Both the position numbers and the translations under genes were made by a program. Below are positions 60,663 to 64,000 of a DNA stretch of 64,000 bases, in pieces (the stretch's first letter is position 1; the number at the start of each line of letters is the position of its first letter). The notes below the pieces were generated by a model, which worked only from the letters and a program-made list of their open reading frames with translations, was not told where the DNA came from and ran no database searches. Source of the DNA: Roseomonas sp. (GTDB lineage: Bacteria > Pseudomonadota > Alphaproteobacteria > Acetobacterales > Acetobacteraceae); NCBI GenBank assembly GCA_020249435.1, contig JADCFQ010000023.1, forward strand, positions 109,028 through 173,027, in the 5' to 3' direction.

Positions 60663-62438
60663 ATGTCCGCCGCCCCCATCACCCCCCCGCGCCCGGCCAT
60701 TCGCCTGCTGCCAGAGACCACCGCGAACCGCATCGCGGCCGGTGAGGTGGTGGAACGCCCGGCTGCCGCGCTCAAGGAAATTGTCGAAAACGCCTTGGAT
60801 GCCGGGGCCAGGCGCATCGCCGTCACGCTGGAAGGCGGCGGGATGGACCGCATTCTGGTGGAAGATGATGGCATTGGCATGGGGCCGGATGATCTGGCGC
60901 TGGCTGTGGAACGCCACGCCACTTCCAAATTGCCGGAAGAAGCCACCTTGTTCCGCATCGCGACGCTTGGCTTCCGGGGAGAGGCCTTGCCTTCCATCGG
61001 CGCGGTGGCGCGGCTTGCCATTACGTCTTGCCCGCAGGGTGGCACCGCGCATCGGATCGTTGTGGAAGGAGGCGTGAAGGGCGATGTCGCCCCGGCCTCA
61101 GGCGCCCCCGGCACGCGGGTTGAGGTGCGGGATTTGTTTTTTGCCACCCCGGCAAGGCGGAAATTCCTACGCCATCCCCGCACGGAAGCCGAACATGCGG
61201 TGGAAGCGGTGCGCCGCCTGGCGCTGGCCTGGCCGGAAGTGGCGTTTCGCGTGCAAAGCGATGGCCGTGACGTGCTGTCCCTGCCGGCGGCTGATCAGGA
61301 AGGCCGCATCAGGCAGGTGCTGGGGCCGGATTTCGCCGCTGCGGCGGTGCCGGTGGAAGCGGTTTCCGAAACCCTTGATATCAGCGGGCTGGCGGCGTTG
61401 CCTTCCCACCACCGCCCAACCACGCTTGGCCAGCATCTGGTGGTGAACCGCCGCCCGGTGCGCGACCCTTTGCTGCGCGTGGCCTTGCGTGTGGCTTACC
61501 GCGATGTGATCCCGCAAGGCCGCCACCCGGCAGCGGCGCTTTTCCTGCAAGTGCCGCCAGAATCCGTGGATGTGAATGTGCATCCGATGAAGACCGAGCT
61601 GCGCTTCCGCGATGGCGAAGCGGTGCGCGGTGCCCTGATTTCCAGCTTGCGCAAGGCGCTGGCGATTGGGGCCGGGACGGTGGTGGCGGTGCCCTCCCTT
61701 ACCGTTGCGGCGCCCGTTGCAGGCTTCAGCGAAGGCCTGCCTGTTTTGCCCCAATCCATGCCGCGCCCGGCTGGGCTGCCGCAGCCGCGCCTGCCCTTGG
61801 GCTTTCGCCCGCCCGGCCTGCCGCCGCCGCCCTCAGCCACGCCTTTGGATGCCGCACATCCGCTGGGCCGTGCCGTGGCGCAGATACTCGACACCTACAT
61901 CATCGCCGAAGCGGCGGATGGCGCCTTGGTGCTGGTGGATCAGCACGCCGCGCATGAACGCCTGACGCATGAGGCGCTGAGTGCGCAGCTGCGTGATGGC
62001 GGCGTGCGCGCGCAGCCTTTGCTGGTGCCGGCGGTGGTGGATATGCCGCAAGCCGATGCGGCGCGCTTGTTGGGGGCGGCGGAAGCACTCGCGCGGCTGG
62101 GGCTGGAAATTGAAGGCTTTGGCGCGGGGGCGGTGCTGGTGCGGAGCCTGCCGGCCTTGCTCGGCGCTGCCGATCCCACACCGCTGCTGCGCGACATGGC
62201 GGAGGAATTGGCGGTGGATGCGGAAAGCATTGCCCTGGAACGCAAGCTGGATGCGGCGATTGCCAGGCTTGCCTGCCATGGCAGCATTCGCGCCGGGCGG
62301 CGGCTTAATGCCGCCGAGATGGACGCGCTGCTGCGCCAGATGGAAGCGACCCCGCGCGCCGCGACATGCAGCCATGGCAGGCCGACGGTGTTGAAGCTGG
62401 ATGCGGCGGGGTTGGAGCGGATGTTTGGGCGGCGGTAG
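60663..62438 (+). CDS. mutL: DNA mismatch repair protein MutL
   Basis: IAAGEVVERPAAALKEIVENALDAG, TLGFRGEALPSIGAVARL; C-terminal endonuclease-type motif DQHAAHERLTHE. Confidence 0.96.
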   Translation: MSAAPITPPRPAIRLLPETTANRIAAGEVVERPAAALKEIVENALDAGARRIAVTLEGGGMDRILVEDDGIGMGPDDLALAVERHATSKLPEEATLFRIATLGFRGEALPSIGAVARLAITSCPQGGTAHRIVVEGGVKGDVAPASGAPGTRVEVRDLFFATPARRKFLRHPRTEAEHAVEAVRRLALAWPEVAFRVQSDGRDVLSLPAADQEGRIRQVLGPDFAAAAVPVEAVSETLDISGLAALPSHHRPTTLGQHLVVNRRPVRDPLLRVALRVAYRDVIPQGRHPAAALFLQVPPESVDVNVHPMKTELRFRDGEAVRGALISSLRKALAIGAGTVVAVPSLTVAAPVAGFSEGLPVLPQSMPRPAGLPQPRLPLGFRPPGLPPPPSATPLDAAHPLGRAVAQILDTYIIAEAADGALVLVDQHAAHERLTHEALSAQLRDGGVRAQPLLVPAVVDMPQADAARLLGAAEALARLGLEIEGFGAGAVLVRSLPALLGAADPTPLLRDMAEELAVDAESIALERKLDAAIARLACHGSIRAGRRLNAAEMDALLRQMEATPRAATCSHGRPTVLKLDAAGLERMFGRR

Positions 62439-62469
62439 GTGGGGGTGATGCTGGCCTGGAGGGGCAGAG

Positions 62470-62530
62470 CACGACATCACTCACGAAGGGCTAGACGCGG
62501 CTACGGAGGCGCCGTTATCGTGATGTTGTG
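62470..62530. promoter_or_regulatory. Imperfect 11-bp inverted repeat (operator-like) upstream of accessory cassette
   Basis: CACGACATCAC (62470-62480) and GTGATGTTGTG (62520-62530), 10 of 11 Watson-Crick plus one wobble. Confidence 0.4.
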
Positions 62531-63016
62531 AGACTTCGCACCATTATCCTCTCCGAAAAAGAAAACTTGTCGCTCGGCTCATGGGCGCAGGGTAAGATGC
62601 CACGCTCTGTTTTTCCGCTGTCAAGGTCGGGGGCTAAAGCTTATCAGCTTGGTAATCGGCGTTGGCGTTTGGTTACTTTTGATGCGAACAGCAGCAGCTT
62701 TCGACTTCTCATTAACTACTCCGCGCCTCTTGGCCAATATCAGGCTATGCTTGGTATGATTGATGGCGGGGGAACGAAGGTTGTGGCGCAGCTTGAAAAG
62801 CACCCAACGCACAAGGGTTGGCATATCCACGCCGCTTGTGGTGTGTTGCACGGCGTACCTGCCGGAATTGTTCGTGGCCCTTGGCTTCGACATCTGAATC
62901 GTGCCCGGCGAGCGGATCAGGCCGACCCCGCGACCATGAATGACGAGATGGCTTTTGCGGTAGCCCAACGTTTTTTTCGCCTTGATAAGGTCCCACCTCT
63001 GGAGTTGGTGTCATGA
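62528..63016 (+). CDS. Hypothetical protein, upstream partner of DUF1828-like gene (start could be ATG 62597)
   Basis: 162 aa with HPTHKGWHIHAACG motif and GIVRGPWLR; 4-nt ATGA overlap with next gene. Confidence 0.7.
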   Translation: MRLRTIILSEKENLSLGSWAQGKMPRSVFPLSRSGAKAYQLGNRRWRLVTFDANSSSFRLLINYSAPLGQYQAMLGMIDGGGTKVVAQLEKHPTHKGWHIHAACGVLHGVPAGIVRGPWLRHLNRARRADQADPATMNDEMAFAVAQRFFRLDKVPPLELVS

Positions 63017-63795
63017 AGGACGATCTCTGCCGTGCCTTCTGTGAGAGTTTGGTGGTCGAAACTGTGCCGGCCGGGTTAGCTGTGACTACAAGCTTTAAGG
63101 GCGTCACCGGCGAGGCCCTCATGTTCTACATTGTAGGCCCGGACGCGGATAATACCTGGCGTTTGCAAGATGATGGCACGACAATACCTTATATCGAGGC
63201 TGCAGGTGCCGAGTTAGGGGGAGGCAGTCGTGCAGAGACCTTTCAGGCGCTCCTGACAGACTTTGGGGCTACGTACGACGAGCAGAGCGGCGAATTGACC
63301 ATCGGGCCGTTGGATAAATCGTCTATTGCAACGGGAGCTTTGCGCTTTATTGCGCTACTTATACGAATTCAGGAATTACTTCAAATCACTCGCGAGAAGG
63401 TCGAGGCGCTCTGGGTCGAAGAGGCCAGGGCCTCGTTGGAGCGTGCTGTCTCCGGCCGCGCCAAAATCGAGTACGATGCCACTGTTTCACCAGAGCTACA
63501 CGAGTGGCCAGCAGATGTGGTGGTTCGCGCCTCGGGACGACCTCCAGTCGCGCTATTTTTTGGGACAAGCAACAATAAGGCTTATGAGGCGTTACTTTTG
63601 AATTCGACAGCTCGCTATCAACTACGCAGACAAGTGATTGTTGTTCTCCTTTTGGAAAACGACAAAGCCTTGACCCAAAGGCTCCGTCAGCGCGCCGACA
63701 ACAGCATAGTTGTACCGCGCTTTAGGGGGGCTGAGTGGGACGCCGTCGGGAGGATTGCCGAAGAGGCGATTGGCGAGCGCCCGCAGATACATTGA
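63013..63795 (+). CDS. DUF1828-like domain protein
   Basis: 260 aa; N-terminus LCRAFCESLVVETVPAGLAVTTSFKGVTGEALMFYIVG...WRLQDDGTTIPYIEAAGAEL fits DUF1828 by eye. Confidence 0.7.
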   Translation: MKDDLCRAFCESLVVETVPAGLAVTTSFKGVTGEALMFYIVGPDADNTWRLQDDGTTIPYIEAAGAELGGGSRAETFQALLTDFGATYDEQSGELTIGPLDKSSIATGALRFIALLIRIQELLQITREKVEALWVEEARASLERAVSGRAKIEYDATVSPELHEWPADVVVRASGRPPVALFFGTSNNKAYEALLLNSTARYQLRRQVIVVLLLENDKALTQRLRQRADNSIVVPRFRGAEWDAVGRIAEEAIGERPQIH

Positions 63796-63865
63796 AGGAA
63801 ATGCATGGCAAGTAGCGAGCGTAATCTTCCTGGCACTAACGCGAGGCAGCTTTGAGTGACACTAG

Positions 63866-64000
63866 CAGGCTGCTGAAATTCGTAGCCTGATTTGCGTATT
63901 TATGATTCACTGTCGTTGCATTTGGTCGAGGTTGCGATGCGTGGCAATGACGCGGTGGCTGGTTCCCTGTTCAGCTATGTTGATCTTGAAAAGCGGGTGC
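63866..64000 (+). mobile_element. Left part of an IS5/IS1182-like insertion sequence (truncated by window)
   Basis: CAGGCTGCTGAAA-type terminal sequence near 63866 followed by transposase N-terminus; exact boundary not determinable. Confidence 0.6.
63937..64000 (+). CDS. IS5/IS1182-like transposase, N-terminal fragment
   Basis: ATG at 63937: MRGNDAVAGSLFSYVDLEKRV..., typical transposase N-terminus. Confidence 0.78.
   Translation, partial: MRGNDAVAGSLFSYVDLEKRV

Follow-up and report, generated by a model that had tools for sequence, protein, structure and literature searches.

What do two small overlapping genes, lodged between mutL and an insertion sequence (IS) in a Roseomonas sp. genome, do together, and how did they come to be there? 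We addressed this question in a 64,000-nucleotide stretch of DNA (the window), for which a preliminary description had proposed an undescribed toxin-antitoxin, defense, or other selfish module starting at position 62439. Both genes are indeed present on the plus strand, while position 62439 is only the first base past the stop codon of mutL (60663 to 62438, plus strand), the core flank whose stop codon forms the left border of the accessory DNA. ORF1 begins after a gap of 89 nt. It extends from 62528 to 63016 (162 amino acids [aa], GTG start) and is followed by ORF2 from 63013 to 63795 (260 aa, ATG start). The two genes are coupled by the expected 4-nt ATGA overlap at positions 63013 to 63016 on the plus strand, a −4 spacing that is also found in 46 of the 88 distinct pairs described below. 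As had been noticed beforehand, the GC content of ORF1 (0.542) and ORF2 (0.552) is lower than that of mutL (0.685), and the same holds for GC3 (0.53 and 0.58 versus 0.76). The left end of a multicopy IS (63862 to 64000), in which both the window and the contig terminate, lies 67 nt past the ORF2 stop codon, close to the 70 nt first estimated. An Rfam scan of positions 62300 to 64000 gave no match, and a promoter scan found no site within the 89 nt preceding ORF1; its two weak sites were both intragenic.

We looked for evidence that the pair might be a fixed core locus next to mutL. MutL was conserved in 29 of the 29 genus genomes searched and was 92 to 96% identical in the closest relatives, yet DNA similarity ended at the mutL stop codon. 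From their sequences, we take the genes found 3′ of mutL in these relatives to be an ornithine-cyclodeaminase-like gene in convergent orientation, along with an amino-acid transporter operon. The gap between mutL and the cyclodeaminase gene is only about 150 nt in two of them (L186 and L193), which corresponds to the empty site, and in others it holds 1 to 2 kb of unrelated, low-GC cargo (DUF3800, DUF4238, sucrase/ferredoxin [Suc_Fer]-like, and RTX-repeat genes). Because the site is either empty or differently filled, a core locus beside mutL could be ruled out, and this gap is instead a small cargo hotspot of the genus. In L174/L188 (G361:C2:178010-178257), we also observed a second, partial mutL 3′ end past the cargo, as if the insertion had duplicated the end of the gene.

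The IS sequence starting at about position 63862 recurs at 33 places in its own genome, many of which are contig ends. In that genome, the cyclodeaminase gene is found at the end of contig C5, and beyond it the IS end is repeated in inverted orientation as a perfect 18-nt copy, including CTAG. Since C5 carries this matching inverted end beside the cyclodeaminase gene, the order mutL, pair, IS, and cyclodeaminase gene is likely across the contig gap. CTAG flanks the multicopy IS, whose copies break many contigs of the assembly.

The pair is accessory DNA. It is also present in Roseomonas rubea (73%/78% identical), where it is located elsewhere in the genome, has a GC content below that of its host, and retains the ORF1 start codon; the gene preceding it is, judging from the sequence, presumably methylenetetrahydrofolate-reductase-like. 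Between the two versions, pN/pS values were 0.165/0.81 for ORF1 and 0.139/0.86 for ORF2, with synonymous change being saturated. Nonsynonymous change is thus far below saturated synonymous change, indicating that both proteins are under selection and that the pair did not arise by mere chance. Within the family, relatives of ORF2 were detected in 14 of 398 sampled genomes and relatives of ORF1 in 7 of 300. The other same-genus genomes listed harbored no relatives of ORF1 or ORF2, and plasmid searches with both proteins gave no match.

The N terminus of ORF2 had been described as DUF1828-like, and the Pfam DUF1828 model indeed matched residues 26 to 119 (E = 6.5e-8; 33.2 bits for a cutoff of 22), while no match to Pfam DUF1829 was found. 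ORF2 further matched PADLOC PDC-M24B (E = 7.3e-11), though over residues 22 to 143 only, and PHROG 5059, a family without annotated function, over residues 2 to 221 (E = 4.1e-23). The C-terminal segment previously pointed out, ADVVVRASGRPPVALFFGTSNNK, is present as stated. We then predicted the structure of ORF2 (pLDDT, 94.5; pTM, 0.70). The top Foldseek matches of the C-terminal domain were mostly proteins of the PD-(D/E)XK fold, including NucS/EndoMS and BstEII, with probabilities of 0.92 to 1.0 and weak E values (best, 0.0057). Among 56 members of the ORF2 family, a loose pattern recovered (D/E/Q)xK in 8, the window protein having no such motif; D168 was retained in 48. The one fully invariant residue of ORF2 is D53, in LxDDG. 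As modeled, the C-terminal domain, the equivalent of DUF1829 in this protein, is a PD-(D/E)XK-like fold without the catalytic motif. In the PDB, the ORF2 profile also hit designed armadillo repeats, which we judged to be spurious.

Direct searches with ORF1 in Pfam, NCBIfam, PADLOC, PHROGs, and the PDB gave no match, the PDC-M24A/DUF6978 models gave none at E ≤ 1, and Foldseek returned nothing significant for the ORF1 model against the PDB and viral models. The model itself (pLDDT, 86; pTM, 0.84) comprises two helices and seven main strands. In 13 aligned members of the ORF1 subfamily, residues K11, W19, W46, H92, G97, H99, and H101 are invariant, and E90 is kept in at least 90%. The His-rich motif reported earlier, HPTHKGWHIHAACG, was found as stated at residues 92 to 105 (62801 to 62842, plus strand), and with its conserved histidines it represents a candidate catalytic or metal-binding site. 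When profiles were compared, the ORF1 subfamily scored 29.4 in its alignment with DUF6978, which spanned 82 to 89 columns and took in the HxH site; the controls reached at most 15.1 in 100 column shuffles and 20.3 with the reversed profile. This signal dropped to near control level once DUF6978 was divided into two groups, and we thus consider the relation of window-type ORF1 to DUF6978, which is supported by a common operon position, size, and partner, as likely rather than proven. Similarity to Ntox24 was seen for two members (best E = 0.038) and was too weak to be used.

To see whether homologues of ORF1 and DUF1828 co-occur, as a neighborhood survey had been suggested to reveal, relatives were gathered from phages, viral contigs, and genomes. 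This gave 88 distinct pairs, or 85 after removal of wrongly assigned partners. The first protein is typically 140 to 185 aa long and is encoded directly upstream of the ORF2 relative, mostly with an ATGA overlap; 64 of the 85 partners clustered as DUF6978 type and 21 as window type. Conversely, a scan of viral contigs starting from ORF1 yielded 34 loci; each had ORF2 directly downstream, in intact form at 32 of them. The two genes thus do co-occur, almost obligately.

The DUF6978-type partners of ORF2 relatives match PADLOC PDC-M24A, and hence PADLOC already lists the DUF6978 and DUF1828/DUF1829 pair as a phage defense candidate. PDC-M24 (A, DUF6978; B, DUF1828/DUF1829) and the window pair have in common two genes in A-B order, an ATGA-type overlap, and a DUF1828 protein in second position. 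They differ in that ORF1 has no match to the M24A/DUF6978 models and ORF2 matches M24B only in part. Because ORF1 is related to DUF6978 only indirectly, by profile-profile comparison, we treat the window pair as a divergent variant of PDC-M24 rather than a member. The pair can therefore be called undescribed only in part: its type is catalogued, and recent work links DUF1829 to defense in a HipA system (PMC13092281, PMC12548924), whereas the window-type ORF1 subfamily is new, as are the roles proposed here for both proteins. In the literature searched, we found no paper naming PDC-M24 and neither toxicity nor defense data for any DUF6978-DUF1828 pair.

We next considered where phages carry the pair. 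Of 66 phage or viral loci, 47 have a repressor-like gene on the same strand, no more than 1.6 kb upstream of the pair. Annotated phages of Rhizobium, Pseudomonas, Staphylococcus, Lactobacillus, and Streptococcus carry the pair downstream of a CI/S24-type repressor and in many cases ahead of the integrase; several loci have it between the two, and a satellite phage carries it as well. Genes that a prophage expresses from next to its repressor in a lysogen often confer protection from other phages. Tha of S. aureus is an example of such a prophage-encoded guard (PMC11087260). The lysogeny-region location and the near-obligate co-occurrence fit the initial suggestion of a toxin-antitoxin, defense, or selfish module. 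The constant position near a repressor, and in part an integrase, would also suit genes that control lysis-lysogeny or integration, have no role in defense, and were stranded beside mutL by mobile DNA. We consider this improbable, since the pair also stands outside recognizable prophages (in the window, L004, and L005) under purifying selection and since the phages, satellites, and archaeal virus that carry it are varied and differ in their regulation. The archaeal virus is the haloarchaeal Humcor1 (L038:2983-4181), in which a DUF6978-like and DUF1828 pair follows an orc1 gene rather than a repressor; the module thus crosses domains.

In the loci surveyed, the two genes are not lost equally often. 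An intact ORF2 was accompanied by a broken or absent ORF1 at about nine loci: two Staphylococcus-type loci with in-frame stops in ORF1 (L040 and L155), two with internal deletions (L067 and L159), one with a 5′ truncation (L140), and four lacking ORF1 (L070, L076, L083, and L086). The reverse, an intact ORF1 with an interrupted ORF2, was seen at two loci (L237; L129/L239). Loss of ORF1 beside an intact ORF2 suggests that ORF1 is the partner that carries a cost, but the asymmetry is biased, because ORF2 was the starting point of most scans and ORF1 loss occurs in other groups than the one covered by the ORF1 scan. These losses bear on the possibility that the roles are reversed, with ORF2 acting as a toxic nuclease or other toxic enzyme and ORF1 as its antitoxin. 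Such a reversal could draw on the nuclease-like fold of ORF2, its widely retained D168, and its invariant D53, but most ORF2 members have no (D/E)xK motif, the cluster of invariant polar residues sits in ORF1, and an intact ORF2 has survived ORF1 loss in several lineages, which makes it quite improbable.

One natural single ORF (L063:1171-2298, minus strand) was found to be a fusion of DUF6978, DUF1828, and DUF1829 with an altered HxH, suggesting that ORF1-type and ORF2-type proteins may touch each other. The gene directly upstream presumably encodes a PIN-like protein, as read from its sequence. L047, also considered as a fusion, was ruled out, as its ORF1 is in a different frame and has its own stop codon.

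As to the possible activity of ORF1, a close parallel comes from TumE-TumA (PF20126, formerly DUF6516). TumE is toxic in E. coli and blocks translation, is neutralized by its partner, and consists of a seven-stranded antiparallel sheet and two helices with no PDB match (PMC10584680). The predicted secondary structure of ORF1 agrees with this published description of TumE. ORF1 had no sequence profile match to PF20126, and since the window-type ORF1 profile gave no direct signal with TumE either, the link runs via DUF6978. Indeed, profile comparison showed that DUF6978 and TumE have an RYDN...HxH motif and a C-terminal helix in common, with a score of 28.0 versus at most 19.5 in 40 shuffles and 13.4 on reversal, and one DUF6978 member matched TumE with an E value of 0.003. 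Unlike TumE, which is usually encoded downstream of its antitoxin, ORF1 is longer and comes first in the operon, and ORF2 is not TumA-like.

For ORF2, a parallel is provided by HipAD/PDC-M66, in which removing the DUF3037 gene causes toxicity and defense is lost when HipA is deleted (PMC12548924). The related DS-6B combines DUF3037 with DUF1829, and contacts with both HipA and DNA are predicted for it (PMC13092281). A DUF3037-DUF1829 protein acts as the neutralizing partner of HipA, with which it forms an anti-phage defense pair (PMC12548924, PMC13092281). As proposed here for ORF2, the DUF1829-bearing protein of HipAD/DS-6/PDC-M66 thus serves as the antitoxin in a two-gene anti-phage system. 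The window pair differs in its toxin candidate, for which HipAD/DS-6/PDC-M66 has a HipA kinase, and in the N-terminal domain of the second protein, for which it has DUF3037.

Taken together, we favor with moderate confidence the reading that the pair is a mobile, phage-derived defense module of toxin-antitoxin (abortive infection) type and a divergent relative of PDC-M24. By its resemblance to TumE, ORF1 is probably a translation-blocking toxin, and ORF2 is a likely antitoxin or sensor, roles that we propose because of the analogy with HipAD/PDC-M66. With a probable toxin and a probable antitoxin, the pair would in turn probably protect its host against other phages. In this proposal, the effector would be ORF1, a seven-stranded alpha+beta protein that resembles TumE and carries an ExH...HxH site. 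Once unbound, it would block translation, probably through RNA cutting. Translation of ORF2 from the overlapping start would allow both proteins to be made together, and ORF2 would bind and silence ORF1. Binding of DNA or a phage product by the degenerate PD-(D/E)XK-like domain of ORF2 would then release ORF1 during infection.

Alternatively, the pair could provide defense or superinfection exclusion without being a toxin-antitoxin system: the nuclease-like domain of ORF2 would sense or bind phage nucleic acid, and ORF2 would recruit ORF1 as a nuclease to attack it, neither protein being toxic alone. The lysogeny-region location, the PD-(D/E)XK-like domain, the PADLOC listing, and the near-obligate co-occurrence are all consistent with this, but the persistence of ORF2 without ORF1 at about nine loci is unexpected for a joint complex, and one protein with a DUF1829 domain is already known to act as an antitoxin (PMC12548924); we regard this alternative as rather unlikely.

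Extending the toxin-antitoxin reading, we tentatively hypothesize that DUF6978 and window-type ORF1 are unrecognized branches of the TumE toxin superfamily, that their antitoxin is of a new kind, with DUF1828 joined to a catalytically dead PD-(D/E)XK domain, and that these anti-phage modules may have been spread by temperate phages in Proteobacteria and Firmicutes and by a haloarchaeal virus. DUF6978, DUF1828, and DUF1829-like, three domains without known function, would thereby gain a testable role, the PADLOC candidate PDC-M24 would be tied to a proven toxin superfamily, TumE, and the survey reveals a wide phage-borne slot carrying the pair. Counting against the toxin-antitoxin reading, NRINIF replaces HxH in the Streptococcus phage partners L037 and L042, which are possibly inactive or differently acting versions. 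Should the inactive nuclease domain serve the antitoxin as its phage sensor, the pair would illustrate a way in which antitoxins of this type can be tripped.
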